From NCBI RefSeq assembly GCF_027307225.1, contig NZ_DAHUXJ010000057.1:1-64000 (forward strand): a stretch of DNA of 64,000 bases, written 5' to 3'. Made by a program: the position numbers and the translations under genes. Positions 46,375-64,000 of the stretch are shown in pieces. Below the pieces are notes generated by a model, which saw only the letters and a program-made list of their open reading frames with translations, was not told where the DNA came from and did not search any database. Position 1 is the stretch's first letter; every line of letters starts with the position of its first letter. This DNA comes from Bradyrhizobium sp. (GTDB lineage Bacteria; Pseudomonadota; Alphaproteobacteria; Rhizobiales; Xanthobacteraceae).

Positions 46375-46537
46375 GCTGACCTTTATAAGAAGGACTTTGG
46401 CCGGACCCAAGATATTGAAATTTTACTTATTGCTCAATGGCGGCGTTTCATAGCGGCGACCCGCACAACGATCTCCGGCTGCGCGGGTGATCAGGCAAAG
46501 CCCTCCCTGAAAAGGGCGCCACCGCAGGGAACGACCA
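46375..46537. promoter_or_regulatory. cbbR-cbbF divergent control region
   Basis: The 163 bases between the two starts contain an AT-rich patch. Inverted half-sites ATTGA (46414-46418) and TCAAT (46434-46438) lie 15 bases apart, and TTATAA occurs near 46384. These are reasonable LysR-type CbbR contacts, but no exact consensus is claimed. AGGGA precedes the cbbF ATG. Confidence 0.55.
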
Positions 46538-47578: not shown

Positions 47579-47590
47579 AAGAGGCCAAGC

Positions 47591-48466
47591 ATGTCGCGCC
47601 GGCACCCCATCATTTCCGTCACGGGCTCTTCCGGCGCTGGCACCACGTCGGTAAAGCGGACCTTCGAGCAGATCTTCCGCCGCGAGAACGTGACCGCGGC
47701 CTATATCGAGGGCGATGCATTCCATCGATACGACCGCTCCGAAATGCGCAGCAGGATGTCGGAAGAAGCCGAACGCGGCAACCGGCACTTCAGCCACTTC
47801 AGCCCCGAAACCAATCTGTTCGAGGCGCTCGAGAAGACGTTTCGCGAGTATGGCGAATCCGGCACCGGATTGACGCGCCACTACGTCCATGATGCCGAAG
47901 AGGGGGCGCTCTATGGCGGCGAGCCGGGCACGTTCACACCCTGGGCGTCCCTGCCCGCCGATTCCGAATTGCTGTTCTACGAAGGCCTGCACGGCGCCGT
48001 AGTGACCGGAAAGGTCAATATCGCGCAGCATGCCGACCTCAAGATCGGCGTCGTACCCGTCATCAACCTGGAATGGATCCAGAAGCTGCATCGTGATCGG
48101 TCACATCGCGGCTATTCGACCGAAGCGGTGACCGACACCATCCTTCGCCGCATGCCGGACTACGTGAACTACATCTGTCCGCAGTTCACCGAGACCGACA
48201 TCAACTTCCAGCGCATTCCGACGGTCGACACCTCGAACCCGTTCATCGCCCGCTGGATCCCGACGCCCGACGAATCGATGGTGGTGATCCGCTTGAAGAA
48301 TCCGCGCGGCATCGACTTTCCTTATCTGCTGTCGATGGTCCCGCACAGCTTCATGTCGCGCGCCAATTCGATCGTGATTCCCGGCTCGAAGCTCGATCTC
48401 GCGATGCAGCTGATTCTTACTCCGCTGATCCTGCAACTCATCGAACGCAAGAGACGCTCACTATGA
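47591..48466 (+). CDS. cbbP: Phosphoribulokinase
   Basis: A 291-residue kinase that phosphorylates ribulose 5-phosphate to RuBP. The P-loop is [11 protein letters not shown] (about residues 11-21), and the conserved [10 protein letters not shown] and EGLHGAVV blocks follow. The protein is of the short proteobacterial type with allosteric NADH control in studied members. AGAGG lies upstream of the ATG, and the TGA overlaps the cbbT start (ATGA). Confidence 0.95.
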
Positions 48467-50508
48467 CGGTCCACTCCGCCGCCGCACTGAACAGCGTCCA
48501 CGCCCTTCCGTCGCAGGTTGCGATGGCCAACGCGGTGCGTTTCCTTGCCGCCGACGCGGTCGAAAGGGCCAAGTCGGGCCATCCCGGTATGCCCATGGGA
48601 ATGGCCGACGTGGCGACCGTGCTGTTCTCCCGCTTTCTCAAATTCGATGCAGCCGATCCGCACTGGCCGGATCGCGACCGCTTCGTGCTGTCGGCTGGCC
48701 ACGGCTCGATGCTGCTGTATGCGCTACTGCATCTGACCGGCTATGAGGCGATGACGCTCGATGAACTCAAGCGCTTCCGCCAGTGGGGTGCGAAGACGCC
48801 CGGCCATCCTGAATTCGGTCACACCGAAGGCGTCGAGACCACGACCGGACCGCTCGGACAGGGGCTTGCGACCGCGGTCGGCATGGCGCTGGCCGAGCGG
48901 ATGCTGAACGCGCGCTTCGGCGACGACCTGGTCGATCATTTTACCTACGTGATCGCCGGCGACGGCTGCCTGATGGAAGGGTTGAGCCAGGAAGCCATCT
49001 CGCTTGCCGGCCATCTGAAGCTGTCGCGCCTGATCGTGCTGTTCGACGACAACCACATCACCATCGACGGCGCGACCTCGTTGTCCTGCTCCGACGATCA
49101 GTTGATCCGCTTCCTTGCTTCCGGCTGGTCGGTCCGACGCGTCGACGGCCACGACCAAAAGGCGATCGCGCAAGCGATCGGCGAAGAACGCGAGACCAAT
49201 CGTCCCTCGCTGATTGCCTGCCGCACCGTGATCGGTTACGGGGCGCCGACCCGCCAGGGTACGGAAAAGGTCCACGGCGCGCCACTCGGCGGCGAAGAAC
49301 TCGACAAGGCGCGCGAGGCCTTGCAGTGGCCGCATACACCGTTCGAAGTTCCGGGCGAATTGCTGGCACGCTGGCGCGCGGTCGGCGCCCGTGGCCGCAT
49401 TGCCCGGCATCGCTGGATGGAACGGCTTGAGCAGCGCGACGAATTCGCTCGTGATGATTTTGACGATGCCCTCAAGGGCGAAGCCGGCAGCGACGTCGGG
49501 TTTGCCCTGCGCGAGATCGAATGCCGCTTTGCGGACGAACGGCCGAAGATTGCAACCCGCCAGGCGTCGCAGCAAGTGCTGGAGGCGATCACGAAAGCCT
49601 CGCCGAATTTGCTCGGCGGCTCCGCGGACCTGACCCACTCGAATCTGACGCTGACGCGCGTGCAGCAACCGGTGCGGCCCGGAGCCTATGACGGCAACTA
49701 CATCCATTATGGCATTCGCGAGCACGCGATGGCGGCCGCGATGAACGGCATCGCATTGCATGGTGGATTCATTCCCTATGGCGGCACGTTCCTGGCGTTT
49801 TCAGACTATAGCCGGCCGGCGATCCGTCTCGCCGCGCTGATGGGCGTGCGCGTCATCCACGTGATGACCCATGATTCGATCGGGCTCGGCGAAGATGGAC
49901 CGACGCACCAGCCGGTCGAGCATCTCGCATCCTTGCGCGCCATCCCGAATCTCCTGGTGTTTCGTCCGGCGGATGCCGTCGAGACGGCCCAGGCCTGGGA
50001 CTGTGCCTTGCGCGCGGCGCGCCAGCCTTCGGTGCTGTGCTTATCCCGGCAGGCGCTGCCTGTGCTCGATCGAGCGTTTGCCCCGGAAAATCCGGTCGCC
50101 CGGGGGGCTTACGTGCTCACAGAGCCCGAGCATCGGCGAGACGTGACGTTGATCGCGACAGGATCGGAAGTCGCGATCGCGACCGACGCGGCCATGCTGC
50201 TCGGCGCGCGCGGCCTGCGTGCGGCCGTGGTGTCGGCCCCCTGTTTCGAACTGTTCGAACAGCAGCCTTCCAGCTACCGCGCCGCCGTGCTCGGCCATGC
50301 GCCGCGGGTCGGCGTCGAAGCGGCGGTCGAGGGCCTTTGGCGAAAATGGATCGGCGAAACCGGTGAGTTCGTCGGCATGAAAGGCTTCGGAGCTTCGGCG
50401 CCCGCAAGCGAGCTCTATGCACACTTCGGCATCACGGCCGAAGCGGTCGCCGCAGCCGCCGAGCGAGCGGTCACGGAAGCGAGGTCCGCAATCCCGATAC
50501 CCGCCTAA
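48463..50508 (+). CDS. cbbT: Transketolase
   Basis: A 681-residue thiamine diphosphate enzyme of the regenerative phase of the Calvin cycle. The N-terminal block [21 protein letters not shown], the TPP motif [13 protein letters not shown] ... [11 protein letters not shown], and the pyrimidine-binding [19 protein letters not shown] are clear. It has normal length. It is translationally coupled to cbbP by ATGA and lies 30 bases before cbbA. Confidence 0.95.
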
Positions 50509-50538
50509 CAGAACAAACGAAACGTCTGGAGTGAAACG

Positions 50539-51615
50539 ATGGCGAAAATCACCTTGCGGCAATTGCTCGATGACGCCGCCGAGCGCGGCTATGGCGTTCC
50601 GGCGTTCAACATCAACAACATGGAACAGGGGCTCGCGATCATGGAGGCCGCCGACGCCGTCGACGCGCCGGTGATCATTCAAGCTTCGCGCGGCGCCCGG
50701 TCCTACGCCGGCGACATTATGCTGTCGCGGATGATCGACGCATTGGTCGAAATGTTTCCACACATCCCGCTTTGCCTGCATCAGGATCACGGCGACAGCG
50801 AAGCCACCTGCGCCACCGCGATCCAGCATGGCTTCACCTCGGTCATGATGGATGGCTCGCTCAGGGCCGACGGCAAGACCGTGGCCGGCTACGCCTACAA
50901 CGTCGACATCACGCGTCGCGTGGTGCAGTTGGCGCACTGGATCGGCGCCTCGGTCGAGGGCGAACTCGGCGTGCTCGGCTCGCTCGAACATGGGGGAAGC
51001 GAAAAGGAGGACGGCCACGGCGCCGAAGGGGCGCTGAGCCACGACCAGTTGCTGACCGATCCCGACCAGGCTGTTGAGTTTGTCGGCGCGACGAACGTCG
51101 ATGCGCTTGCCATCGCGATGGGCACCTCGCACGGCGCCTACAAGTTCACGCGCAAACCCGACGGCGAAATTCTCGCCATGCGCGTGGTCGAAGAGATCCA
51201 TCGCCGGCTCCCGAACACGCATCTGGTGATGCATGGCTCGTCGTCGGTGCCACAGCCGCTCCAGGACATGTTCAACGCCTTCGGCGGCGAAATGCCTCAG
51301 ACCTGGGGCGTCCCGATTGAGGAGATCGTGCTCGGCATCAAGCACGGCGTGCGCAAGGTCAATATCGACACCGATTGCCGCCTCGCGATGACAGCCGCCT
51401 TCCGCAAAGTGGCGCAGCAATCGAAAACCGAATTCGACCCGCGAAAATTCTTAAAGCCGGCGATGGACGCGCTGGGCGGTCTCTGTCGCGAGCGCTTCGA
51501 GCAGTTCGGAACGGCCGGCAACGCAAGCCGTATCCGGTCGATCCCGCTTGCCGAAATGGCGCGCCGCTACCGCTCGGGCGCGCTCAACAGCGAACGCATG
51601 ACGGAAGCGGCCTGA
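50539..51615 (+). CDS. cbbA: Fructose-bisphosphate aldolase, class II (Calvin cycle subtype)
   Basis: A 358-residue zinc aldolase forming fructose 1,6- and sedoheptulose 1,7-bisphosphate. Metal-binding sequences include [13 protein letters not shown] and [15 protein letters not shown], with [11 protein letters not shown] and [18 protein letters not shown] further on. The last is typical of the cbb subtype. AGTGAAACG precedes the ATG; the gene is 33 bases from cbbL. Confidence 0.95.
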
Positions 51616-51630
51616 GGGGGCCCGTGGTGA

Positions 51631-53109
<1,479 letters not shown>

Positions 53110-53122
53110 AAGGAACCTTACA

Positions 53123-53545
53123 ATGCGTATCACCCAGGGATGCTTTTCGTTCCTTCCCGATCTGACCGACGAGCAGATCAAGAGCCAGGTTCAATACTGC
53201 CTCGACAATGGCTGGGCCGTGAACATCGAGTTCACCGATGACCCGCACCCCCGCAACACCTACTGGGAAATGTGGGGACTGCCGATGTTCGACCTGCGCG
53301 ATGCCGCCGGCATCATGAAAGAACTCGGCGATTGCCGGCGCGTCTATGGCGATCGCTACATTCGCATCTCCGGCTTCGATTCGAGCCATGGCTGGGAGTC
53401 GGTGCGGATCTCGTTCATCGTCAACCGGCCGAAAGAGGAGCCGGGATTCCGGCTCGATCGGCAAGAAGCGGTTGGCCGCAACATCCGCTACACGACGCGG
53501 GCTTACGCTGCCGATCGTCCCGAAGGCGAGCGCTACCAGTCATAA
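53123..53545 (+). CDS. cbbS: RuBisCO small subunit, form IC
   Basis: A 140-residue subunit starting [19 protein letters not shown], with the conserved [28 protein letters not shown] split over its middle. The C-terminal extension past residue 110 ([20 protein letters not shown]) is the red-type hairpin that forms a beta-barrel in the L8S8 enzyme. AGGAA precedes the ATG, 13 bases after cbbL. It ends 12 bases before cbbX. Confidence 0.96.
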
Positions 53546-53557
53546 GGGTCGGCAATC

Positions 53558-54505
53558 ATGGCTCATCCAAATCTCCAGGCTGTCGGGCGCGAAGGCAGCG
53601 GCGAATCTGTCCCCTCCTCCATCGACCTGCGGCAGGAATTCGACGCCGTCGAGATCGCACCGATCCTGGCGCAACTCGACCGGGAATTGATCGGGCTTTT
53701 GCCGGTGAAAAGCCGCATCCGGGAGATCGCCTCGTTGCTGCTGGTCGAGCGGATTCGCCGGAAGATGTCGCTCGCCAATACCTATCCGACGCTGCACATG
53801 TCGTTCACCGGAAATCCCGGCACCGGCAAGACGACGGTCGCGATGCGGATGGCCGGCATCCTGCACCGGCTCGGCTTTGTCCGCCGCGGCCATGTCATCA
53901 GCGTCACGCGCGATGATTTGGTCGGCCAGTACATCGGTCACACCGCGCCAAAGACCAAGGAGATCCTGAAGAAGGCGATGGGCGGCGTCCTGTTCATCGA
54001 CGAGGCCTATTATCTCTACCGGCCGGAGAACGAACGCGATTACGGTCAGGAGGCGATCGAGATCCTGCTCCAGGTCATGGAAGCGCAGCGCGAAGATCTT
54101 GTCGTGGTGCTCGCCGGATACCGCGACCGCATGGAACGATTCTTCCAGAGCAATCCCGGCTTTCGTTCGCGCATCGCCCACCACATCGATTTTCCGGACT
54201 ATTCCGAGGCGGAATTGCTCGCAATCGCCGAGTTGATGCTGGTCGAACAGAACTACCGGTTCTCACCCGAGGCGCGGGACGCCTTCACCCGCTACATCGC
54301 GCTGCGCAAGACGCAGCCGCTGTTCTCCAACGCACGCTCGATCCGTAACGCACTGGACCGGATTCGCCTCAGACAGGCCAACCGGATTGTCGCTCACCTC
54401 GACCGCGTTCTCACTTCAGATGAGCTGATGGCGATCGAGGCGAATGACGTACTCGCCAGCCGGGTTTTCTCCGGCGGATTCGACAAGGAGAGGACCGAGC
54501 CGTGA
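53558..54505 (+). CDS. cbbX: Red-type RuBisCO activase CbbX
   Basis: A 315-residue AAA+ ATPase that pulls on the RuBisCO large-subunit C-terminus to release inhibitory sugar phosphates. Walker A is GNPGTGKT (residues 85-92), Walker B is [12 protein letters not shown], and the pore-loop and arginine-finger regions ([18 protein letters not shown]) are present. Its stop overlaps the GTG of cbbY by four bases. CbbX with form IC RuBisCO is the expected pair. Confidence 0.96.
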
Positions 54506-55224
54506 ATGTCGAGACACTGTCGGTACTGCTACGCCCGCGCAGCCTGAAGGACCGGATCGCCGATGCTGCCGTGTTGATCCTCGATGTCGACGGCACGCTT
54601 GCCGAGACCGAGGGCATTCATCGCCGCGCCTTCAACGCGGCATTCATCGAAGCTGGTTTCGACTGGTATTGGGACCAGCGGACCTACAAGAAGCTCCTGC
54701 GCACAACCGGCGGCAAGGAACGCATTCAGGCCTTCGGCCGGACGCGCTATCCCGGGATATGCCTGTCCGATTCTGAAGTCGCCAAGCTGCATCGGACAAA
54801 GACACGGCACTACGGCCGGCTGATCGCCCAGCACACCTGCCGGCTGCGGCCCGGCGTCGCGGCCTTGATCCGCAATTCCCGGGCTCGTGGCCAGACGCTC
54901 GCGATCGCGACCACGACGACATACAGCAATATCGACGAGCTGTTGTCAGTAGCGCTGGAGGCAAACTGGTGCGACCTGTTCGCCACCGTCGTTGCCGGGG
55001 ACGATGTGGCACGCAAGAAGCCGGCGCCAGATGTCTATCTCGAGGTCTTGGCAAGGCTCGGTTACGGCGCGAGCGAGTGTCTCGCGATCGAAGATTCTGC
55101 CAATGGCCTGAAGGCGGCCTCGTCCGCTGGAATTCCCGTGTTGATCAGCCGCAGCGAATATTTTCGCGATGACGATTTCTCAGGTGCACTGGCGGTCGTC
55201 GACGATCTTACAGAACTCGGATAG
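54502..55224 (+). CDS. cbbY: CbbY-type HAD phosphatase
   Basis: A 240-residue haloacid dehalogenase phosphatase. The nucleophile motif is [13 protein letters not shown] (Asp28, Asp30), and later motifs are [18 protein letters not shown] and [12 protein letters not shown]. Known CbbY enzymes remove xylulose 1,5-bisphosphate, a misfire inhibitor of RuBisCO released by CbbX, which fits its place as last gene of the operon. The GTG start overlaps the cbbX stop. Confidence 0.92.
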
Positions 55225-55365: not shown

Positions 55366-55407
55366 CGCGGTGAAATATCACAATCATATCTGCGTAATTT
55401 CACCGCG
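55366..55407. promoter_or_regulatory. Long inverted repeat, candidate operator of the GntR gene
   Basis: CGCGGTGAAAT (55366-55376) and its exact reverse complement ATTTCACCGCG (55397-55407) are 20 bases apart, centre to centre about 31 bases (three helical turns). The site is about 50 bases upstream of the GntR start and includes the only AT-rich patch of the gap. A TTGACT lies just before it at 55353-55358, a possible -35. Binding by the adjacent regulator is inference. Confidence 0.6.
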
Positions 55408-55455: not shown

Positions 55456-56136
55456 ATGACGATCCGAAACCCGACGCGCAAGCGGTTGGCTCCCGAACAG
55501 CCGGGCACATCCTCGCTATTGGAAACTGCATATGAAAAAATCAAGCGGCAGATCACGGCCTGCGAGTTTCGTCCCGGCGACCACCTCAACGAGGCCGAGC
55601 TTTCCGAGCGGCTCGGGATTGGGCGTACGCCGGTGCATCAGGCAATCGACCGGCTGATGATGGAGGGGCTGGTGCAGGTGATGCCGCGCAAGGGTATCCT
55701 CGTAACTCCGGTCAGCCTCGACGTCGTGGTGCAAACGATCGAAGTGCGGCTGCTCAACGAGTGCCATTGCGCGCGGCTCGCCGCCGAACGTGCGAGCGAG
55801 AAGGAGATCCGCATCCTGGACGATATTCTTGCGCGGGCGGAGAAGGTGCTGCCGCGGCGTAATTCCGAGCGGCTGATGCGGCTCGATCGTGAATTTCATG
55901 GCGCAATCGCGCAAGTCTCGCGCAACGCCGTGCTTGCCGACGTCCTCGGACGGCTGCACGACAAATCGTTGCGCTTCTGGATTCTGTCATTGAATACGCC
56001 GGGCCATCACGCGCGCGTCCACGCACAGCATCGCGCGATTCTCGATGCCATCCATGCGCACGATCCGCTTGCCGCCGAACAGGCGATGCGCGACCACATC
56101 GAAGATTTTCGACGCAACCTTCTCAGCAGCATCTAG
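55456..56136 (+). CDS. GntR (FadR/FCD) family regulator
   Basis: A 226-residue regulator. The N-terminal winged helix reads AYEKIKRQITACEFRPGDHLNE with LSERLGIGRTPVHQAIDRL. The C-terminal FCD all-helical domain contains LDREFHGAIAQVSRN and the metal-binding His pattern, with AQHRAILDAIHAHDP near the end. FCD regulators usually bind organic acids. It opens an accessory cluster of a binding protein, a cupin, a flavin reductase and an HpaB-like oxygenase and probably controls it. No good Shine-Dalgarno precedes the ATG. Confidence 0.85.
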   Translation: MTIRNPTRKRLAPEQPGTSSLLETAYEKIKRQITACEFRPGDHLNEAELSERLGIGRTPVHQAIDRLMMEGLVQVMPRKGILVTPVSLDVVVQTIEVRLLNECHCARLAAERASEKEIRILDDILARAEKVLPRRNSERLMRLDREFHGAIAQVSRNAVLADVLGRLHDKSLRFWILSLNTPGHHARVHAQHRAILDAIHAHDPLAAEQAMRDHIEDFRRNLLSSI

Positions 56137-56151
56137 GTGCAGGACACTCCA

Positions 56152-57075
56152 ATGAAGATCGCAGTTCCGGACCTGATCTCGAATTCGTATTTTCCAGCCG
56201 CTGCCGCGGTCGAGCTGGGATTTTTCAAGCAGTTCGGTCTCGACGTCTCGCTCGAACTGATCTTTCCGGTCGACAAATCCTATCATGCGCTGCGCGCCGG
56301 CGAGATCGATTTCGTGGCTGGCTCGGCGCATTCGGCATTGGCCGCGTTTCCGGAATGGGATGGTTGCAAGTTGCTCTGCGCGCAGGGCCAGGGCATGTAC
56401 TGGTTTCTGGTCATGCGCGCCGATCTCGATCCGAAGCGCGGCGATCTCTCTATCGTCAAGGGCCGCCGCGTCGGCGCGGCGCCGTGGGTCGACATGGGCT
56501 TGCGACGTCTGCTGGTCGAAGCGGGCATCGACCTAGCACGGGAAAACGTGACCATTGCACCGGTTCCCGGCGCGACCGGGTCGAGCGTGAATTTCGGCTT
56601 GACGGCCGCCAAGGCTCTTGAAGAAGGCAAGATCGATGGCTTCTGGGCGAACGGCATGGGCACCGAAGTCGCGGTGCGCCGCGGCGTCGGGAAGGTCGTT
56701 ATCGACGTGCGCCGCGGCGACGGTCCGAAAGCTTGCTTCAATTATACGATGGCGTCGGTCGCGGCGAGCGACCTCCTCATCAACGATCGTCCCGACGTCG
56801 CGGCGAACGCCGTGCGCGCGATCGTCGCCACTCAGGCGGCGCTAAAGGCCGAGCCCGAACTGGCCGCCAAAGTCGGTGCAAAATTCTTTCCCCCCAACGA
56901 GGCGTCGCTGATCACCGATCTGATCCGCCGCGATCTGCCCTACTACGACGCCAGCATCTCGCCGGCTTTCGTCGAAGGGATGAACGGCTTCGCGCGCGAC
57001 GCCGGTATCCTGTCCGGCCACCCGAGCTACGGGCAGGTCGTCGCCACCCAGTTCGCCGATCTCTGGAAACCATGA
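56152..57075 (+). CDS. NMT1/SsuA-like substrate-binding protein without signal peptide
   Basis: A 307-residue periplasmic-binding-fold protein: IAVPDLISNSYFPAAAAVELGFF, then GEIDFVAGSAHSALAAF and VPGATGSSVNFGLTAAKAL. The fold is that of ABC importer binding proteins, but it starts directly at the domain. The ATG at 56152 (AGGA 8-9 bases upstream) leaves no signal peptide, and there is no room for one: only five more codons are open back to a GTG at 56137. No permease or ATPase gene is nearby. It may act in the cytoplasm as a ligand-binding or enzymatic protein. Confidence 0.75.
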   Translation: MKIAVPDLISNSYFPAAAAVELGFFKQFGLDVSLELIFPVDKSYHALRAGEIDFVAGSAHSALAAFPEWDGCKLLCAQGQGMYWFLVMRADLDPKRGDLSIVKGRRVGAAPWVDMGLRRLLVEAGIDLARENVTIAPVPGATGSSVNFGLTAAKALEEGKIDGFWANGMGTEVAVRRGVGKVVIDVRRGDGPKACFNYTMASVAASDLLINDRPDVAANAVRAIVATQAALKAEPELAAKVGAKFFPPNEASLITDLIRRDLPYYDASISPAFVEGMNGFARDAGILSGHPSYGQVVATQFADLWKP

Positions 57076-57103
57076 AACACGCGAAATCATTAGGAGAGCC
57101 TTG

Positions 57104-57484
57104 ATGGCCATCAACAAGCTGCACGACGAGTTCCACACCCTCGACATGAACTCCGGATGGGAAGTGCCCGCGGGCTATCCCTCCGGGATTCAGCAGAAGA
57201 TCCTTTCCGGCGCACTCGATGAGAAGAACAAGCGCGGAAGCCGGACACGGCTGCTGCGCTTCGATCCCGGCGTTTACACCACAGCGCCTTTCGTTCACGA
57301 ATACTGGGAGGAAGTCTTCCTGGTTCAGGGCGACCTCACCGTCGGCAATGACGCCAAGGGAAAAGGCGGCGAAGGCTTCAGGCCGTTCACCTATGCGTGC
57401 CGTCCGCCGGGCGCCTATCATGGTCCCTTCCTTTCGAACGGCGGATGCCTCTTGATGGAGATCCACTACTTCGATCCGGCGTAA
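57104..57484 (+). CDS. Small cupin-fold protein
   Basis: A 126-residue single-domain cupin of the ChrR-like type. It contains FDPGVYTTAPFVHEYWEEVFLVQGDLTVG with His and Glu ligands, then ACRPPGAYHGPFLSNGGCLLMEIHYF. AGGAG lies 7 bases upstream of the ATG. It may be a metal-dependent enzyme or an accessory factor for the oxygenase encoded downstream. It is 29 bases after the binding protein gene and part of the same plus-strand operon. Confidence 0.7.
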   Translation: MAINKLHDEFHTLDMNSGWEVPAGYPSGIQQKILSGALDEKNKRGSRTRLLRFDPGVYTTAPFVHEYWEEVFLVQGDLTVGNDAKGKGGEGFRPFTYACRPPGAYHGPFLSNGGCLLMEIHYFDPA

Positions 57485-57523
57485 CCAGGAACCACGACCG
57501 ATCGCATTGCAGGGAGAGCCGCC

Positions 57524-58048
57524 ATGACCTTTACAGATCGGGAATTCCGCGACGCACTGGGCCAGTTCGCGACCGGCGTCTGCGTGATCACGGCGGAGGT
57601 CGACGGCATTCTGCTCGGCTCGACGGTAAGTTCGTTCAACTCGGTCTCGCTGGCGCCCCCGCTCATCCTGTTCAGCCTGGCGCGGGCGGCCCAGACTCTC
57701 GACCTATGGCTCAAGGCAACGCACTTCGGCGTCACCGTGCTGTCCGAAAGCCAAACCGACCTCTCCAACCGATTCGCGCGCGGCGGCGCCGACAAGTGGG
57801 CCGGGCTGGCACCGTTCCGCGGCAAGAGCGGGGTGCCCCTGCTCCGCGGCGGCCTGGTGACTTTCGAATGCAAGACCTACGCGACCTATGAAGGCGGCGA
57901 CCACGAGATTATGCTGGGCGAGGTCCTCGAATTCAGCCGGACGATCTCGACGCCTTTGCTTTTTCACGGCGGACGCTATCGGCGCCTTCATTCCGATGAG
58001 GCGATCGAGACTCCGCCGAATATTGACGTTTGGCTCCACGGCTGGTGA
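57524..58048 (+). CDS. NAD(P)H:flavin reductase, HpaC type
   Basis: A 174-residue flavin reductase of the split-barrel family. It has the sequence FRDALGQFATGVCVITAEVDG near the start, followed by GSTVSSFNSVSLAPPLILFSLAR, and a late segment RYRRLH. Such small reductases supply FADH2 or FMNH2 to a separate monooxygenase; the HpaB-like oxygenase at 58799-60304 is the obvious partner. AGGGAGAG lies upstream of the ATG. Its 3' end overlaps the convergent MarR gene by 116 bases. Confidence 0.85.
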   Translation: MTFTDREFRDALGQFATGVCVITAEVDGILLGSTVSSFNSVSLAPPLILFSLARAAQTLDLWLKATHFGVTVLSESQTDLSNRFARGGADKWAGLAPFRGKSGVPLLRGGLVTFECKTYATYEGGDHEIMLGEVLEFSRTISTPLLFHGGRYRRLHSDEAIETPPNIDVWLHGW

Positions 58049-58616
58049 CAGCAGACCCGTCCGCTGCGGGCGGCTGCTCCTTGCGCTGGAGCTGACGCTT
58101 TCGGATCTCGGCAAGTGCGCTCTCCGAATTCAGGATGAGCTGCCGTGCAACGCGCTGTGTGGTCTTGAGCGCCTCAGGATCGATATCCTCAAACAGCACG
58201 TCGTTGATGAGACGGATGAACGGCGCGATGCGGGCAACCTCCTGCTCGCCGCGCGGCCGAAGAAAAACGCGCACGCTGCGTTTGTCGACCGGGCTCGGCC
58301 GCTTCACCAGAAGGCCGGCTTCCTCGAGCCGCCGGACCTCGGTCGTCACGTGGGTCGAGGCGAGCGCGACGTGATCGGCCAGACCGCGGATCGTGACCCC
58401 ACCAGAGCCCTGCGACTGGGCCACCCCCATCAGTACGACGAATTGACTAGGCGTCAGGTTCAGCTCCTTGCCGAAGGCGTCCCGGCAAGCGAGCAGACGC
58501 CCGACGCACTGCACCATCGCATAGATACTGCGGCGAAAGTCCGCATCCGACCCCTGAACCAGGAATTCTTTCCGGGAGACGGTCACGGGAGCCCTGTAGA
58601 CGTCGGGTTTAGGCAT
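57933..58616 (-). CDS. MarR-family regulator
   Basis: A 227-residue regulator with winged helix LTPSQFVVLMGVAQSQGSGGVTIRGLADHVALASTHVTTEVRRLEEAGL and wing KRPSPVDKRSVRVFLRP. A 60-residue hydrophilic C-terminal tail, unusual for MarR, is encoded in the part that overlaps the flavin reductase gene on the other strand. It is divergent from the HpaB gene, with a palindrome in the gap, so it is the likely repressor of the oxygenase. AGGA lies 7 bases upstream of the ATG. Confidence 0.85.
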   Translation of the reverse strand: MPKPDVYRAPVTVSRKEFLVQGSDADFRRSIYAMVQCVGRLLACRDAFGKELNLTPSQFVVLMGVAQSQGSGGVTIRGLADHVALASTHVTTEVRRLEEAGLLVKRPSPVDKRSVRVFLRPRGEQEVARIAPFIRLINDVLFEDIDPEALKTTQRVARQLILNSESALAEIRKRQLQRKEQPPAADGSAVTSRGAKRQYSAESRSPHRNEGADSVRREKAKASRSSG

Positions 58617-58682
58617 TTGGCATCCTGAGAATCGCCAGAAATCTGTAACGCTCGCGTTGAAATATCACGCCCCCATCAGCAT

Positions 58683-58729
58683 TGACAATGTCCGACATAT
58701 AGCTACAGTTCGTATCTGTTTGATGTAGC
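58683..58729 (+). promoter_or_regulatory. Promoter/operator upstream of the HpaB-like gene
   Basis: A TTGACA (58683-58688) is followed at 16 bases by TACAGT as a weak -10. An inverted repeat GCTACA (58702-58707) / TGTAGC (58724-58729) overlaps the -10, a position suited to repression by the divergent MarR protein. The 28-base span from arm to arm is longer than most MarR sites, so confidence is moderate. Confidence 0.5.
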
Positions 58730-58798
58730 ATAAACGACAGCGCGACAACCGGCCCTTCGGCCGGCGCGACTGTCACATCATAGGGAGGGGAAATCGAA

Positions 58799-60304
58799 AT
58801 GACCGTGACGGCATCCAAACCGGTCGAAGTCAACGCGACGACGCCGCTGCGAACTGGCGCGTCATTTCTCGATGACCTGCGCACCGGCGGGCGAACGGTG
58901 TTCGTCGACGGCGAGTTGGTGCGCGACCCGACCAGGCATCGCGCCTTTGCGAACGGAGCGCGGACCTTCGCGAGGCTGTTCGACTATGCCGCCGCCCCCG
59001 AAAACAGGGAGCGCATGACCTACACTTCGCCTGACACCGGCGGGCCGGTATGGCGCTGCTTCCAGATTCCGCGCACGCATGCCGACCTGCGTGCCAAGCG
59101 TCTCGCCGCCGAGGGATGGGCCGAGCAGACCTTCGGGCTGATGGGCCGTACGCCGGACCACGTGGCGAACTTCTTCGCCGGCTATGCCGCGAAGCCCGAA
59201 TTTTTTGCGCGCGGCGGCGCCGGCTATGCCGAGAACGTCGTAAATTTCTACAAGCACATTCGCGACAATCACAAATACGTCGTCTATGCGATCGTTCCTC
59301 CGCAGATCGACCGCAGCAAACCCGGACACCAGCAGAGCGATCCGACGCTTTACGCAGGCGTCGTCAAGGAAACCGACGCCGGGATCGTCGTCCACGGCGG
59401 CCAGCAGCTCGCGACCGGCGCGGTCTTCGCCGACTATGTGCAAGTGAGCTGTATCCATCCGCTGCGTCCGGGTGACGAGAACTATGCGATCAGCGTCGCA
59501 ATCCCGCTAGACGCGCCGGGCGTCAAGCTCTACTCGCGACGCGCCTTCGCCATGCAGGCGACCAGCGCGGAAGACTATCCGTTGACCAGCCGCTTCGACG
59601 AGACCGACTGCTTTGTGGTTCTCGATAATGTGCTGGTGCCCTGGGAGCGTGTGTTCATCTACCGCAATACGGAGCTGTGTTTCCAGCAGTGGTGGCAGAC
59701 GCCGTCGCACTCCTACGGCAATCATCAGGCGCAAGCCCGCTACGCAACCAAGCTTCGCTTCCTGCTCGGTCTTGCCAAGCGCATGAACGAGGCGACCGGC
59801 AACGATGCCGCACCGCCCGTGCAGGTCGAAATGGGCGAACTCGCCGCCTATGCGTCAATCGTCGAGAACATGCTGCACTCGCACGAGACGGTGGCACCGA
59901 TCGACGAGGACGGCATCCTGTGGCCGTCAAAGACGGCGCTCTATGCCGTGATGGCGTTGCAAGGCCAGATCAACCCGCACATGATCGACATTGTGCGAGA
60001 ACTGACCGGAGCCGGGATGATCACCCTGCCCTCCTCGATGCGCGACTTCGAGAACCCGGAATCGGCCGCGGACATCGAACGCTATTTCGTGTCGGGCAAG
60101 ATGGGCGCCCGCGAGCGCGTCCGTTTGATGCGGCTCGCCTGGGACTTCATCGGCACCGAGTTCGGCAACCGCCATCAGCAATACGAGAAGTTCTATGGCG
60201 GTGCGTCGTACCTCGTGAAGACCAACATGTACCGCGCCTACGACTTCAAGCGAGCGGGCGGCCTCGTCGACGCGGCACTGAACCTGCCGCCGGTCGTCTC
60301 CTGA
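58799..60304 (+). CDS. 4-hydroxyphenylacetate 3-monooxygenase (HpaB)-family oxygenase
   Basis: A 501-residue FADH2-dependent monooxygenase large subunit. Family landmarks are FARLFDYAAAPENRERMTY, MGRTPDHVANFFAGYAA, NNHKYVV-like YKHIRDNHKYVVYAIVPPQ, DETDCFVVLDNVLVPWERVFIYRN, and GAGMITLPSS. Members ortho-hydroxylate phenolic substrates and need a reductase, here probably the product of 57524-58048. GGGAGGGG lies upstream of the ATG. The exact substrate is not given by the sequence: HpaB, PvcC, HpaH and chlorophenol oxygenases share these motifs. Confidence 0.88.
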   Translation: MTVTASKPVEVNATTPLRTGASFLDDLRTGGRTVFVDGELVRDPTRHRAFANGARTFARLFDYAAAPENRERMTYTSPDTGGPVWRCFQIPRTHADLRAKRLAAEGWAEQTFGLMGRTPDHVANFFAGYAAKPEFFARGGAGYAENVVNFYKHIRDNHKYVVYAIVPPQIDRSKPGHQQSDPTLYAGVVKETDAGIVVHGGQQLATGAVFADYVQVSCIHPLRPGDENYAISVAIPLDAPGVKLYSRRAFAMQATSAEDYPLTSRFDETDCFVVLDNVLVPWERVFIYRNTELCFQQWWQTPSHSYGNHQAQARYATKLRFLLGLAKRMNEATGNDAAPPVQVEMGELAAYASIVENMLHSHETVAPIDEDGILWPSKTALYAVMALQGQINPHMIDIVRELTGAGMITLPSSMRDFENPESAADIERYFVSGKMGARERVRLMRLAWDFIGTEFGNRHQQYEKFYGGASYLVKTNMYRAYDFKRAGGLVDAALNLPPVVS

Positions 60305-60313
60305 CGCCCAGAG

Positions 60314-60344
60314 CGAGGCGGCGCCGGGATCGTGCGCCGCCTCG
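60314..60344. other. GC-rich stem-loop between oxygenase and transporter genes
   Basis: CGAGGCGGCGC and GCGCCGCCTCG form a perfect 11-bp stem with a 9-base loop, 10 bases after the oxygenase stop. No T-run follows, so it may attenuate transcription or protect the 3' end rather than fully terminate. Confidence 0.55.
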
Positions 60345-60410
60345 TCCACCAAATGCGCAAACGCACGCCGCAGCGATAACGCGGCCGTCACAAGGAGAAG
60401 GGGGAAACAT

Positions 60411-61679
60411 ATGACAACGGACGTGGAAATGGGCGGCGTCGCCGCCTCAAAAGCCGGCACTTCGGCGCCGGCAGAGGGAACAGCGTCACCGCTGCGCTGG
60501 ATCATCGCGCTCATCCTGTTCCTCGCGGTGATATCGGCGTTCTTCGATCGCATCAGCGTCGCCGTGTTGTTCACCAACAAGGAATTCCAGGACGCCTTGG
60601 GCACGGGCTTCAACCCGACGCTTCTCGGTCTCCTGATGACGGCTTTCGTGTTCGCCTATGGCTGCTCGGGGGTGTTTCTGTCCTTCATCGGTGACCTGTT
60701 TGGGCTCCGGCGCTCGCTGGCGGTCGGCACCGCGTTCTGGGGCGTCTTCATGACGCTGATGGCGGGCGCCGGATCGTTCACCTCGATGTTGTCGATGCGC
60801 ATTCTGCTCGGCGTCGCCGAAGGCCCGCAGTTTTCGATCACCAATTCGCTGATCAAGCGCTGGTTTCCGCGGCGCGAGCAGGCACGCGCCAACTCTATCT
60901 GGATGATCGGCAGCCCGCTCGGATCGGCGATCGGATTCCCGCTGATGATCTTCCTCGAGACGAACTACGGCTGGCGCGCCGCGTTCCTGTTCCTCGCACT
61001 GCTCAATATCGTGGTGATCCTGCCCCTGATCCTGTTCTTCCTGCGCGACAATCCGCCGGGGGTGGCGGCACCAACGACGCCGGCGGCGCAGTCGTCGTAC
61101 CTGTCGCAGGTCGGTCTCTACTGCCGCGACTGGCGTTTCTGGATGATTGTGATCTTCAACTCCGCGGCGCTCATCTATCTGTGGGGCCTCAACAGCTGGC
61201 TACCGACCTATCTCATCAAGGTACGCGGCTTCGATCCGCGGCACACGAGCCTGTATTCTTTCCTGCCGTTCTTTCTGATGTTCCTCGGTGAGGTCCTCGC
61301 GGCAACGGTGTCGGACAAGATCGGCCGGAGGGCCATCGTTTGCCTCGTCGGCCTGTTCGGCGCCGGCGCCGCGATGTACGTCGTCTCCATCGTGCCTGAT
61401 GCGCAGACCGCGGCAATCCTGATTGCGGTGAGCGCCTTCTTCTGGGGCTCGGCGCTGCCGCCCTTGTTCGCATTATCGCTGCAAATCCTGCCGCCGCGCG
61501 CTGTCGCTTCGGGGGTCGGTGTGTTCAACGGCGTCGGCAACATCGTCGGCGCGTTGTCGCCAGTGGTGATCGGAGCGCTGATCGCACATACCGGCTCGTT
61601 CCATGCAGGCCTGATGGTGCTGGTCGGCGCAACCATCATTGGATCTCTTGCAATGATTCCGCTGCTGCGGCGCTACTGA
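60411..61679 (+). CDS. MFS transporter, ACS (anion:cation symporter) type
   Basis: A 422-residue carrier with 12 predicted helices. Helix 1 reads LILFLAVISAFFDRISVAVLF, and the typical ACS block is SMRILLGVAEGPQFSITNSLIKRWFPRREQARANSIW. ACS carriers import organic anions such as tartrate, phthalate and hydroxyphenylacetate. AGGAGAAGGGGG lies upstream of the ATG. Its place behind the oxygenase suggests uptake of that enzyme's substrate. Confidence 0.88.
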   Translation: MTTDVEMGGVAASKAGTSAPAEGTASPLRWIIALILFLAVISAFFDRISVAVLFTNKEFQDALGTGFNPTLLGLLMTAFVFAYGCSGVFLSFIGDLFGLRRSLAVGTAFWGVFMTLMAGAGSFTSMLSMRILLGVAEGPQFSITNSLIKRWFPRREQARANSIWMIGSPLGSAIGFPLMIFLETNYGWRAAFLFLALLNIVVILPLILFFLRDNPPGVAAPTTPAAQSSYLSQVGLYCRDWRFWMIVIFNSAALIYLWGLNSWLPTYLIKVRGFDPRHTSLYSFLPFFLMFLGEVLAATVSDKIGRRAIVCLVGLFGAGAAMYVVSIVPDAQTAAILIAVSAFFWGSALPPLFALSLQILPPRAVASGVGVFNGVGNIVGALSPVVIGALIAHTGSFHAGLMVLVGATIIGSLAMIPLLRRY

Positions 61680-61691
61680 TCTCAAAAACAA

Positions 61692-61719
61692 TCGGCGGCC
61701 GCCCTTGCGCGGCCGCCGA
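61692..61719 (-). terminator. Bidirectional hairpin, intrinsic terminator for the minus strand
   Basis: TCGGCGGCCGC and its exact reverse complement form an 11-bp stem with a 6-base loop. On the minus strand the stem is followed by TTGTTTTTGAG. It separates two convergent MFS genes and can serve both. Confidence 0.8.
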
Positions 61720-61739
61720 CCATATTTCAGGATGGCGCG

Positions 61740-62909
61740 TCATCGCTCCTTCGGCCGCGTGAACCTCGGCACCGCGACCAGGATCGGAAAGCTCCCGAGC
61801 AAAATCGGGATGAGCGAAGCGTTGATACTGCCCGCCAGATCCCACACAACTCCGGACAGAAACGAAACCAGCATCGCGAAGCCGTAGGCGATGGCAAAGG
61901 CGGCCGCCGATGTCCGCGCGACATCGTTGGGGTTGTCGCAAAGCATCGGGGCGAGAGCCAATCCCAGGACCAGCGCCGCGCCGAGCGAAAATCCGGCCAG
62001 ACCCGCCCAGAAGATTGTCCAGGTGCTCGCGGTCGTCATGATTCCCACGACGCAAGCGGACGACACCACGCCCAACACCATGTATGGCCATCGCTTGCCC
62101 TGCAACTTGTCGGCTGTCACCAGCAGGAGAAGCGAGGCAGGGATCTGTCCCGAGTTGACGGCTGTCAATGTCGCGCTGACGAGTTCCTGGTGGCTGCTTG
62201 CGCTCAGATGCGCGGGCAAAAATCCATTAAGACAGAAATAGGTGCTCGTAACGCTGCCGAAAGTCAGTCCGATTTGCCAATTGAGACCGCTGTTTAACTG
62301 CGGCAGCCAGCTTGCTGAATGCTTTGGCGCAACATTTGCCGCTGGCCTTGGAGCCAGCATCGTAACCGTTACAGCCGTGGCGATCAGGGGAAGAACCCAC
62401 GCACTCAACGCCAGACGCCAGCTTTCGCCGAAATAGGGCACCAACAGCGGAAGCATCGTGGCAACGGGGATGATCTCGCCCATGATCAGGCCGTTGGTGT
62501 AGATGGCCGTTCCGAACGTTGATCGCTCCGGCGCCCATTCGCGCACCGCCGCCGCCATCGATGGTTGCATGACCGCAATCCCGATGCTCATGAGCACGGT
62601 CGTCACGTACAATTGCCACGCGTTGCCCGCGCCGCTTCGAAGTAGCGTCCCGCACGCCGCAATCAGAAGACCGCTCACGAGCGCGCCACGCACGCCCATC
62701 CGGCCGACAAGGATCGAGCCCGGCGCGGCGAAGATCGCAAACACGACAACGGGTATGCCGGACAGCAAACCTATTTCGGTGCCGGACAGGTTGAGATCGC
62801 GCTGGATCAGCGAAATCACCGGCGGGATCGACAAAACCGTCAGCCGAAGACTGACGCCGCAGATCCACAGCAGAGAAAAGGATCTACGCGCCGTGACTAT
62901 ACTGTCCAC
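61740..62909 (-). CDS. MFS transporter, CynX/NimT type
   Basis: A 389-residue carrier related to cyanate/nitroimidazole transporter CynX. The N-terminal block is LRLTVLSIPPVISLIQRDLNLSGTEIGLLSGIPVVVFA, with GRMGVRGALVSGLLIAACG following. The GTG at 62909 was chosen because AAGGA lies 7 bases upstream and it gives a short N-terminus; the longer frame to 63029 overlaps the neighbouring MarR gene. It is probably co-transcribed with that MarR regulator. Substrate unknown. Confidence 0.82.
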   Translation of the reverse strand: MDSIVTARRSFSLLWICGVSLRLTVLSIPPVISLIQRDLNLSGTEIGLLSGIPVVVFAIFAAPGSILVGRMGVRGALVSGLLIAACGTLLRSGAGNAWQLYVTTVLMSIGIAVMQPSMAAAVREWAPERSTFGTAIYTNGLIMGEIIPVATMLPLLVPYFGESWRLALSAWVLPLIATAVTVTMLAPRPAANVAPKHSASWLPQLNSGLNWQIGLTFGSVTSTYFCLNGFLPAHLSASSHQELVSATLTAVNSGQIPASLLLLVTADKLQGKRWPYMVLGVVSSACVVGIMTTASTWTIFWAGLAGFSLGAALVLGLALAPMLCDNPNDVARTSAAAFAIAYGFAMLVSFLSGVVWDLAGSINASLIPILLGSFPILVAVPRFTRPKER

Positions 62910-63025
62910 TGGTCTTTCCTTCTGCGGTCCATCCGGCTCATGACACGAGTCCGTCCGCCAACGTGCCTGGCTACCGCATGCGGGCGTTCTGGACGTTGCG
63001 CTGTCGCCGGCACACAACGTGGCGC

Positions 63026-63631
63026 TCAAGCCACCTTCGTCGCTTCCTTGATCGATGACTTGTATCGTTGCAACGCGAAGGCCTTGTCGCTGGAATCGAT
63101 CAGCGTCTCCAGGATACGGGAAATTGCCTGAAAATCCTCGCGGCTAAGCGGCCCGAATTCGACATCGTTGATCTCGCGCTGATAGGGCGCGAGCTTGCGC
63201 AGGAGCGCCTTGCCCTTCTCGGTGATGACGAGCGAAATCCGCCGCCGGTCGACGTTGTCCTGGTTCTTTTCGACAAGGCCGAGCGTCTGCAGCTTGCTGG
63301 TTACCGTGGTGACGAAGGCGCCGCTCATATGCAGATGATCCGCGATCGTCTTGACGTTGACGTCGCCGTCGAGGCCGAGGTGACCGATCGAGATCAGGAT
63401 TGTGTATTCCACGCCTGCGAGGCCGATCTGCCTGGCATGGCCGTCCCGGATCGACTCATGCCGGGCCATGAAAGCGAAAAGGTTATGCACGAGTTTGCGA
63501 AAATCGCGATCGGTGCCGTCGCTCAGAAGCTCTGGCCGGGTAACGGTCAGCGGCAACCCGCCGCGCAAACTGGTCGGCTCAGCGCGGCGCGGCGTTTGCC
63601 CTCGCTCTGTTTTGGCTTTTTGGCGCGACAC
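63026..63631 (-). CDS. MarR-family regulator
   Basis: A 201-residue regulator. The winged helix includes LAGVEYTILISIGHLGLDGDVNVKTIADHLHMSGAFVTTVTSKLQ and the wing NQDNVDRRRISLVITEKG. GTG at 63631 was chosen: GGAG lies exactly 7 bases upstream, while the longer TTG frame to 63682 lacks a site. It precedes the CynX-type carrier gene on the same strand and follows the DUF2848 gene, so it may control either. The 40-residue N-terminal basic extension is not part of the MarR fold. Confidence 0.82.
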   Translation of the reverse strand: MSRQKAKTERGQTPRRAEPTSLRGGLPLTVTRPELLSDGTDRDFRKLVHNLFAFMARHESIRDGHARQIGLAGVEYTILISIGHLGLDGDVNVKTIADHLHMSGAFVTTVTSKLQTLGLVEKNQDNVDRRRISLVITEKGKALLRKLAPYQREINDVEFGPLSREDFQAISRILETLIDSSDKAFALQRYKSSIKEATKVA

Positions 63632-63709
63632 CTGCGTTCTCCGAATGGCATTCGATTGATTGGCGAGAGTAGGCTTGAGCAAACACTTAGAAAATTTTAA
63701 AGGGATGGA

Positions 63710-64000
63710 TCAAGTGACCACCGGCAGGACGTCGATATCGTAGGCATGACGCAGCGTACGACTGTGGACGGGATCCTCCAGCTCGATCTCGAACCGGCTC
63801 GCCGGACGGATGCCGCCGATCGCAGCCAGCGTACCGCAGAACATGATAGCGCCCGGCGGAAGCGCCGCGCCATACCGCGCAATCAGGTCGGCCGGCGCGC
63901 GCATGCCGGCGAGCGTGCCATCCTGGTAGGTGACGCGGTGGCCGTCGATGGTGACGAACGCCCGCAGCCGCAACTGGTCCCAGTGACCGGCGACATCGTC
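63710..64000 (-). CDS. DUF2848-like protein (FAH-like fold), C-terminal part cut by window edge
   Basis: The minus strand is open from the right edge to the TGA at 63710 and gives about 96 C-terminal residues. The block LPPGAIMFCGTLAAIGGIRPASRFEIEL followed by DPVHSRTLRHAYDI resembles the end of DUF2848 proteins, which share the fumarylacetoacetate hydrolase-like fold. These are often found in catabolic clusters, where they may hydrolyse or hydrate ring-cleavage-type products. The metal-binding residues would lie outside the window. It is 78 bases upstream of the MarR gene on the same strand. Confidence 0.6.
   Translation of the reverse strand, partial: DDVAGHWDQLRLRAFVTIDGHRVTYQDGTLAGMRAPADLIARYGAALPPGAIMFCGTLAAIGGIRPASRFEIELEDPVHSRTLRHAYDIDVLPVVT

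Follow-up and report, generated by a model that had tools for sequence, protein, structure and literature searches.

The 64,000-nucleotide stretch of Bradyrhizobium sp. contig NZ_DAHUXJ010000057.1 analysed here (hereafter the window) ends in a gene cluster that encodes an HpaB-like flavin oxygenase (HpaB1), an HpaC-like flavin reductase, regulators and carriers and that, read past the window, also encodes a second oxygenase (HpaB2) and an enamidase-like amidohydrolase. We propose that this cluster probably catabolizes a nitrogen heteroaromatic compound, by flavin-dependent hydroxylation to a cyclic enamide followed by hydrolytic opening of the ring. On the evidence of gene content, order, family, motif and predicted fold, the region from 55.4 to 72.7 kb would be an inducible catabolic island. 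The presence together of two flavin oxygenases and an enamidase-like hydrolase without a dioxygenase would be explained by oxygenation to a lactam and then hydrolysis. The window comprises bases 1-64000 of a contig of 91,979 bases, in a genome of 5.6 Mb on 160 contigs (genus-mates in our sample have 5.0-10.4 Mb).

All of the parts that the original prediction had listed for 55456-64000 were recovered by open reading frame and domain scans, with cluster domain matches far above chance (HpaB_N 1.4e-91, HpaB 4.3e-54 and DUF2848 1.7e-30; Table 1). The prediction had also offered the possibility that the pathway continues to the right, and on reading the contig we found that the gene cluster does so. 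We picked genes from 64000 to the contig end and ran Pfam on ten stretches reaching as far as 74567; the minus-strand operon goes on past 64000 with the rest of the DUF2848 gene and with genes for the enamidase-like protein, HpaB2 and a PF06684 protein. The order on this strand is PF06684, HpaB2, amidohydrolase, DUF2848, MarR regulator 2 (MarR2) and a CynX-like carrier, with gaps of 66, 14 (between the HpaB2 and amidohydrolase genes), 112 and 27 bases and then a 4-base overlap, using starts that we chose, and these six genes are probably one operon. On the plus strand, the GntR, NMT1-like, cupin and hpaC genes form one unit and hpaB1 and its carrier another; between the two units lies the minus-strand gene for MarR regulator 1 (MarR1), the 3' end of which overlaps hpaC. 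The neighbours beyond 64000 point, by their sequence families, to a nitrogen heterocycle as the substrate.

The cluster had been described as an accessory hpa set acting on a substrate that might be a non-classical phenol. Two elements of that description stood: the substrate does appear to be non-classical, and we saw no gene for a ring-cleavage dioxygenase between 55 kb and the contig end (by eye, with Pfam to 74567; the 45 kb to the left of a Calvin-cycle operon were only glanced over). The hpa label and the phenol or halophenol reading gave way to family scores below cut-off, an altered substrate pocket and neighbours of a nitrogen type. HpaB1 and HpaB2 both contain the HpaB_N and HpaB domains, and HpaB1 scored 345.6 bits against TIGR02309 (cut-off 480.2) and 302.6 bits against TIGR02310 (cut-off 885.2), missing both HpaB equivalogs; the two MarR proteins scored 23.6 and 30.6 bits against HpaR (TIGR02337), below its cut-off of 121.2. 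A complete standard hpa ring-cleavage pathway did not follow directly to the right of 64000, and no HpaD, HpaE or HpaF was seen by eye from 55 kb to the contig end. We rejected a continuation of this kind. Such genes are present elsewhere in the genome: HpaR (160.1 bits), HpaE (834.2 bits) and HpaD (437 bits), all over cut-off, lie together on contig C100 with an HpaF-like isomerase (98.8 bits, below the cut-off of 215), and contig C37 encodes an HpaB with the canonical pocket, itself below the TIGR02310 cut-off at 697.3 bits. TIGR02298, the other HpaD model, had no match in the genome, which is a weak negative as only one of 14 control genomes matched and none did so over cut-off.

The pocket itself differs from that of 4-hydroxyphenylacetate hydroxylases. 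Arg100, Tyr104 and His142 of Thermus thermophilus HpaB, which we take to be substrate contacts along with their equivalents, align with Arg117, His121 and Tyr163 of HpaB1. This order (R-H-Y) is shared by HpaB2, whereas the 4-hydroxyphenylacetate hydroxylase type has R-Y-H. Compared with the T. thermophilus HpaB/HpaC system (2YYG/2YYK, 6QYH), the proteins here have the same domains, presumably the same two-component FADH2 chemistry and the equivalent of Arg100, but they carry His for Tyr104 and Tyr for His142, score below cut-off and have no hpaD, hpaE or hpaF neighbours. It might still be argued that the cluster is an accessory 4-hydroxyphenylacetate or phenol set feeding catechols into the meta-cleavage genes on C100, given its HpaB and flavin-reductase domains, the HpaR, HpaF-like, HpaE and HpaD proteins available there and the HpaD-like dioxygenase found in the loci of 7 of 60 HpaB1 relatives. 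We consider this highly improbable, since HpaB1 misses both equivalog cut-offs and has Tyr and His swapped in its pocket, an R-Y-H HpaB is already present on C37, and the enamidase and the PF06684 protein would be left unexplained.

We surveyed the pocket in 122 aligned rows, grouped by identity to HpaB1 or HpaB2. R-H-Y was found in 64/64 rows of the HpaB1 group (at least 58% identical to HpaB1), in 8/8 rows at least 61% identical to HpaB2 and in 12/12 at 50-61%, that is, in all 84 rows of the two groups (81 distinct: 63, 7 and 11, with the window's own two included). Nine of 10 rows in the 38-50% class also had R-H-Y, and seven more distant HpaB rows had neither this order nor R-Y-H. Among named matches, that from Bradyrhizobium sp. 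dw_411 is the closest to HpaB1 (89%), and "4-hydroxyphenylacetate monooxygenase/hydroxylase" is a common annotation of HpaB-like genes in plasmid records.

The amidohydrolase encoded next to HpaB2 has the enamidase of the Eubacterium barkeri nicotinate pathway as its best PDB match (2VUN; 333 bits, 1.9e-98, over almost the entire chain), the next match reaching 34 bits. Of the six positions H67, H69, E164, H193, H220 and D276, which we take to be the enamidase metal ligands, all but E164 are kept; Lys replaces this residue, one residue is deleted before position 164 and S279 has become Thr. The gene also differs from that of E. barkeri in adjoining an oxygenase gene. Many cyclic-amide hydrolases of the amidohydrolase superfamily use a lysine at this position as a carboxylated bridge. 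Lys at 164 was present in the copy studied here and in 29/30 aligned rows (22 distinct genes, with a 23rd in locus L042), a group that we call lysine-type. A second enamidase copy in the same genome, on contig C11, retains Glu at 164 (Glu-type). This gene (C11:24503-25654; L149) represents a type that is common throughout the order. Its relatives often occur with PF06684 and some of them with isochorismatase and nucleoside hydrolases, and it may belong to a nicotinate- or nucleoside-derived lactam route.

The pairing of HpaB2 with a lysine-type enamidase recurs in other genomes. An order sample of 397 genomes, in which the searches scored at most 4 and at most 3 candidates per genome, contained six other HpaB2 relatives of at least 61% identity. 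Five of them adjoin a lysine-type enamidase (G238, G178, G072, G055 and G270) and none was seen alongside the sixth (G258), nor was one present within 20 kb of any of 38 weaker HpaB rows. Starting from the enamidase, an R-H-Y HpaB of at least 60% identity was present in 8 of 13 lysine-type loci of the order sample (our own and 12 others, not chosen by HpaB) and in none of the 17 Glu-type loci fetched (16 weaker rows at 43-47%, plus the own copy), several of which instead had nucleoside hydrolases (two families, 5/17 each) and isochorismatases (7/17). Over all 24 lysine-type loci, seven of which had entered through HpaB searches (L035, L036, where the stretch ends within the enamidase, L048, L051, L073, L078 and L085), such an HpaB occurred in 15 versus 0 of the Glu-type loci, and PF06684 in 22 versus 13. 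A lysine-type locus on a Rhodococcus plasmid (L042) has neither PF06684 nor HpaB within 25 kb and was left out of these counts; with it the lysine-type figures become 22/25 for PF06684 and 15/25 for HpaB. Plasmid records with an enamidase match numbered 25, of which six were examined. Relatives of MarR2 (44-59%) adjoin several of the HpaB2/enamidase pairs, and a FAD monooxygenase beside the Agrobacterium vitis enamidase had PnpA (p-nitrophenol monooxygenase) as its first PDB match, at 246 bits, and 6-hydroxy-3-succinoylpyridine 3-monooxygenase second, at 211 bits.

DUF2848 is predicted to have a fumarylacetoacetate-hydrolase (FAH) fold. In the model of its orthologue from locus L046 (predicted local distance difference test score, pLDDT, 85.6), all 19 PDB matches at E<=0.001 belonged to the FAH superfamily, HpcE among them; we take HpcE, Cg1458 and the keto-deoxy-sugar dehydratases among these matches to be members, the others being assigned by title. 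E81, E83, D100 and D103 were invariant in 10/10 sequences, and some of them may correspond to E-x-E...D, the acidic metal triad of the superfamily. A second DUF2848-like gene was seen by eye on C100 (L168:15777-17808), beside an amidase-like gene and a few kb from the hpa genes there. The other helper, the PF06684 protein, belongs to a family with a variant chorismate-mutase fold and branched-chain amino-acid transport genes nearby (PMC2954203). A homologue from the trigonelline pathway, TgnF, is reported to stimulate succinate-semialdehyde oxidation (PMC7913881). We assigned the protein as TgnF-like through its Pfam match and this published homology; a model of an orthologue (pLDDT 79.4) matched only DUF1185 structures at E<=0.001 (3/3). 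A RidA-like enamine deaminase was unsupported, a Rid protein being 49th among the structure matches with an E value of 0.53.

From these components the following route can be envisaged. The LIV-type ABC system and the MFS carriers would import the compound, and the MarR and GntR regulators would sense it. The two HpaB oxygenases would receive FADH2 from HpaC and would hold a heteroaromatic rather than a phenylacetate in their R-H-Y pocket. Hydroxylation next to the ring nitrogen, or conjugated with it, would lead to a lactam (cyclic enamide) tautomer, the ring of which the enamidase-like hydrolase would open with water to yield an aldehyde or keto acid and ammonia, and the PF06684 protein and FAH-fold DUF2848 may then process the open-chain product. 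No dioxygenase would be required. HpaB2, the enamidase and the PF06684 protein would make up the ring-opening core, and HpaB1, HpaC, the cupin and the NMT1-like protein a second module, for a preparatory conversion of the same substrate or for the use of a related one.

Known pathways for nitrogen heterocycles resemble this route in part. TgnA and TgnB of the trigonelline (tgn) pathway are presumably a two-component flavin-dependent system, with TgnB a luciferase-type oxygenase and the tgn hydrolase of another family than the enamidase-like protein here; KpiA of the 4-hydroxypyridine (kpi) pathway is presumably also a different type of monooxygenase. We dropped membership of the trigonelline pathway, as its oxygenase is of another family, and used the homology of one helper protein only. 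The likeness consists of a PF06684 homologue in an N-heterocycle pathway that starts with the TgnA/TgnB oxygenase (PMC7913881 and PMC8269262). In the kpi pathway of Arthrobacter IN13 (PMC7356986), a flavin monooxygenase and then an amidohydrolase-superfamily enzyme can open the pyridine ring, and an FAH-family protein is proposed downstream; the opener, KpiC, is 28% identical to enamidase but is reported as an extradiol dioxygenase that cleaves oxygenolytically. Nicotinate- and picolinate-type pathways via 2,5-dihydroxypyridine (NicX) are brought to mind by loci L046 and L047, where HpaB1 relatives are accompanied by relatives of NicX and by hydrolases of the isochorismatase family, and differ in that no NicX relative was found in this genome. 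An indole-acetate (iad) locus, suggested by the MarR and LIV genes, was considered and dropped. The literature searched, in which subscription papers are poorly covered, gave no experimental characterization of these HpaB or lysine-type enamidase relatives, no match for DUF2848 or for hydroxypyridine catabolism with UbiD and, among the matches listed, no 4-hydroxyphenylacetate flavin-reductase cluster with dihydroxypyridine.

To place HpaB1 among its relatives, we kept 80 of 98; 59 at >=59% identity and the window gave 60 loci, and 21 at 35-39% formed an outgroup, the loci of which are shorter (311 kb for 21 versus 1068 kb for 60). When families were clustered, the counts for the 60 loci versus the 21 were 30 versus 0 for UbiD, 37 versus 1 for MarR, 15 versus 0 each for a xanthine dehydrogenase (XDH)-type large subunit and a 2A0114-like MFS carrier, 6 versus 0 each for enamidase and PF06684, 12 versus 1 for DUF2848 and 10 versus 4 for cupin. 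Single-query tblastn gave 15 versus 0 for UbiD, 32 versus 2 for MarR1, 14 versus 0 for the NMT1-like protein, 21 versus 1 for HpaC and 2 versus 0 for NicX; the differences for DUF2848 (12 versus 1, p 0.17), PF06684 (7 versus 0, p 0.18) and enamidase (6 versus 0, p 0.33) were not significant. Neither enamidase nor PF06684 stands out significantly against this outgroup alone; it is the order sample that supports the link between HpaB2 and enamidase. The cupin was dropped as a marker of the cluster, being found in 14/60 HpaB1 loci and in 5/21 outgroup loci too. A recurrent HpaB1 cluster (L076, L079, L084, L086, L099 and L103) contains UbiD, a fumarate-reductase-like flavoprotein, an XDH-type hydroxylase and a cycloisomerase-like lyase, with an HpaD-like dioxygenase in 5/6 and a luciferase-type monooxygenase in 5/6; L049 and L059 combine HpaB1 with UbiD, an XDH-type hydroxylase, a TRZ/ATZ-type amidohydrolase and an alpha/beta hydrolase, a layout that recalls kpi.

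Several of the HpaB1 loci bear on the nature of the substrate. HpaB1 relatives at 64-75% identity have an enamidase 3-10 kb away in five named genomes or metagenome-assembled genomes (L048, L051, L073, L078 and L085), and an HpaB1-type gene lies near an enamidase in L147 and L036 as well. In none of the 60 loci did a VOC dioxygenase and an enamidase occur together. The locus of a Rhizobiaceae metagenome-assembled genome (L046; HpaB1 80%) encodes UbiD, MarR, DUF2848, NMT1-like, cupin, amidase and isochorismatase proteins together with one that scores 263 bits to 2,5-dihydroxypyridine 5,6-dioxygenase (NicX), and L047 has relatives of this isochorismatase and of the dioxygenase-like protein. L078 unites an oxygenase, a reductase, an aldehyde dehydrogenase, PF06684, an enamidase and UbiX. 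For UbiD, the best match is 7PDA. Of the candidate substrates, a pyrrole fits the chemistry best, and the NicX association fits a pyridine. In a specific form of the route, the oxygenase would convert pyrrole(-2-carboxylate) to 5-oxo-dihydropyrrole(-2-carboxylate) and the enamidase would release 2-oxoglutarate or succinate semialdehyde and ammonia. By our own chemical reasoning, alpha-hydroxylation of a pyrrole directly gives a cyclic enamide whose ring contains four carbons; the gene set of L078, the reported stimulation of succinate-semialdehyde oxidation by TgnF (PMC7913881) and a Rhodococcus pyrrole-2-carboxylate monooxygenase (ref. 51 in PMC6165268) agree with this form. Xanthobacter tagetidis, a species that reportedly uses pyrrole-2-carboxylate for growth, encodes an HpaB1 of 70% identity (L052). 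We nevertheless regard it as unlikely, as the NicX relative in two HpaB1 loci indicates pyridines, and UbiD and aldehyde dehydrogenase are absent from this cluster.

It is also possible, and we take it seriously while giving it less than even weight, that two separate modules adjoin each other here, with HpaB1, HpaC, the cupin and the NMT1-like protein serving one aromatic acid, perhaps a carbocyclic one, and HpaB2, the enamidase, PF06684 and the LIV genes a nitrogen compound. Each half has its own MarR regulator, and the partners of HpaB1 relatives vary. Set against this, DUF2848, which is near HpaB1 in 11 other loci, is here part of the HpaB2 operon, a single flavin reductase was seen, and HpaB1-type genes are near an enamidase in five loci besides the window, plus L147 and L036.

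Several observations weigh against a single nitrogen-heterocycle pathway as we propose it. In Bradyrhizobium dw_411 (G032) the two modules are on different contigs and therefore do not have to act on one compound: C17 carries HpaB1 with cupin, NMT1-like, HpaC, DUF2848 and UbiD genes, and C12 combines an HpaB2-like gene with those for enamidase, PF06684 and LIV proteins. An HpaD-like VOC (extradiol) dioxygenase is present in 7/60 HpaB1 loci (0/21 in the outgroup) and an enamidase in only 6/60, the window included; HpaB1 alone is therefore no proof of a nitrogen substrate. The R-H-Y signature, found in 11/21 rows at 30-38% (the other 10 having R-Y-H), is not specific to enamidase neighbours, and PF06684, also present in 13/17 Glu-type loci, was rejected as a lysine-type-specific protein. 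The amidohydrolase has Lys where the true enamidase has Glu164, and in 3/22 distinct lysine-type relatives the first His is Gln. For HcdD, a relative of the PF06684 protein, a stimulating effect reportedly could not be shown (PMC7913881). No UbiD was seen on this contig as read, the sole UbiD_N match of the genome being on C7; a search of the genome for a NicX relative, made without a positive control, found none; and the cluster has no aldehyde dehydrogenase, eight matches of this type lying elsewhere in the genome. Finally, the LIV binding-protein gene (C108:68054-69284; L032:13055-14285) reads in two overlapping frames and so looks frameshifted, either genuinely or through an assembly error.

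The remaining features of the cluster concern its small proteins and its control regions. The original prediction had named a binding protein: the gene is present, and the protein it encodes is probably not a transport binding protein because its fold begins at the start, at the first strand, with no room for a signal peptide. The ATG at 56152 is the start that agrees with relatives, and in 12/13 of these, too, no more than a few residues separate a possible start from the fold (L070 is ambiguous, and the frame of L045 reaches 88 codons upstream); hydropathy figures alone do not separate these proteins from control binding proteins. The NMT1-like protein is thus probably cytoplasmic, an enzyme or a ligand-binding protein. 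As for control regions, TTGAAATATCAC with at most one mismatch has two sites in the window (55370-55381 and 58657-58668), both in promoters of this cluster, where 0.10 would be expected and 3/100 shuffles reach two; its core is also present before hpaB1 of Bradyrhizobium dw_411. The 11-mer TGAAATATCAC is found again before hpaB1 here and before hpaB1 of dw_411; 163 of 168 loci searched had no match to it, and the remaining five belong to the window genome and dw_411. Among 57 loci, GCTACA inverted half-sites were present upstream of hpaB1 in six besides this one. All of these motifs are candidate operators. A Calvin-cycle operon read by eye at 45409-55224 (regulator, fructose-bisphosphatase, phosphoribulokinase, transketolase, aldolase, RuBisCO large and small subunits, CbbX and HAD phosphatase) stops about 230 bases before the cluster, and no functional link between them was seen.

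Table 1. Genes and candidate control sites of the cluster and of the adjoining contig (contig coordinates).
Feature	Position	Strand	Basis
11-nt perfect inverted repeat CGCGGTGAAAT...ATTTCACCGCG, upstream of GntR gene; candidate operator	55366-55407		contains GTGAAATATCAC (55370-55381)
GntR/FCD regulator	55456-56136	+	FCD 2.5e-29, GntR 1.3e-16
NMT1/THI5-like protein	56152-57075 (alternative start 56137)	+	NMT1 24.4 bits, cut-off 20.5
Small cupin (ChrR-like)	57101-57484	+	Cupin_7 27.9 bits, cut-off 27
HpaC-like flavin reductase	57524-58048	+	Flavin_Reduct 3.5e-35
MarR regulator 1, divergent from hpaB1	57933-58616	-	domain scan
hpaB1 promoter region; candidate MarR/GntR operators	58657-58740		TTGAAATATCAC (58657-58668), then GCTACA...TGTAGC inverted half-sites
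HpaB1, oxygenase of two-component flavin monooxygenase, R117-H121-Y163 type	58799-60304	+	domains, equivalog scores, alignment
MFS carrier (2A0114-like)	60411-61679	+	domain/family scans
MFS carrier (CynX/NimT-like), probable last gene of minus-strand operon	61740-63029	-	TIGR00896 122.5 bits, below cut-off 406
MarR regulator 2	63026-63682	-	domain scan
DUF2848	63710-64411 (window part 63710-64000)	-	272.2 bits
Enamidase-like amidohydrolase, beyond window	64524-65720	-	contig read past 64000
HpaB2, beyond window	65735-67213	-	HpaB_N + HpaB domains
PF06684 protein, beyond window	67280-67876	-	Pfam 210.5 bits, cut-off 27
LIV-type ABC transporter genes, beyond window	68054-72671	+	divergent from minus-strand operon
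Chemoreceptor, beyond window	72774-74567	-	contig read past 64000

The R-H-Y pocket signature sets apart a large group of HpaB-like proteins that probably do something other than the reaction for which they are commonly named. Beyond this, we tentatively suggest a new aerobic, dioxygenase-free route for N-heteroaromatics, in which an R-H-Y HpaB converts the ring to a cyclic enamide, which is then opened hydrolytically by a lysine-type enamidase in conjunction with a TgnF-like PF06684 protein. Such a route would recur across the alpha- and betaproteobacteria in several variants, some of which would use a UbiD decarboxylase or a FAD monooxygenase instead. If this is true, it would provide testable functions for DUF2848, PF06684 and the lysine-type enamidase family, and would represent an additional aerobic hydrolytic strategy for opening the rings of nitrogen heterocycles in soil.

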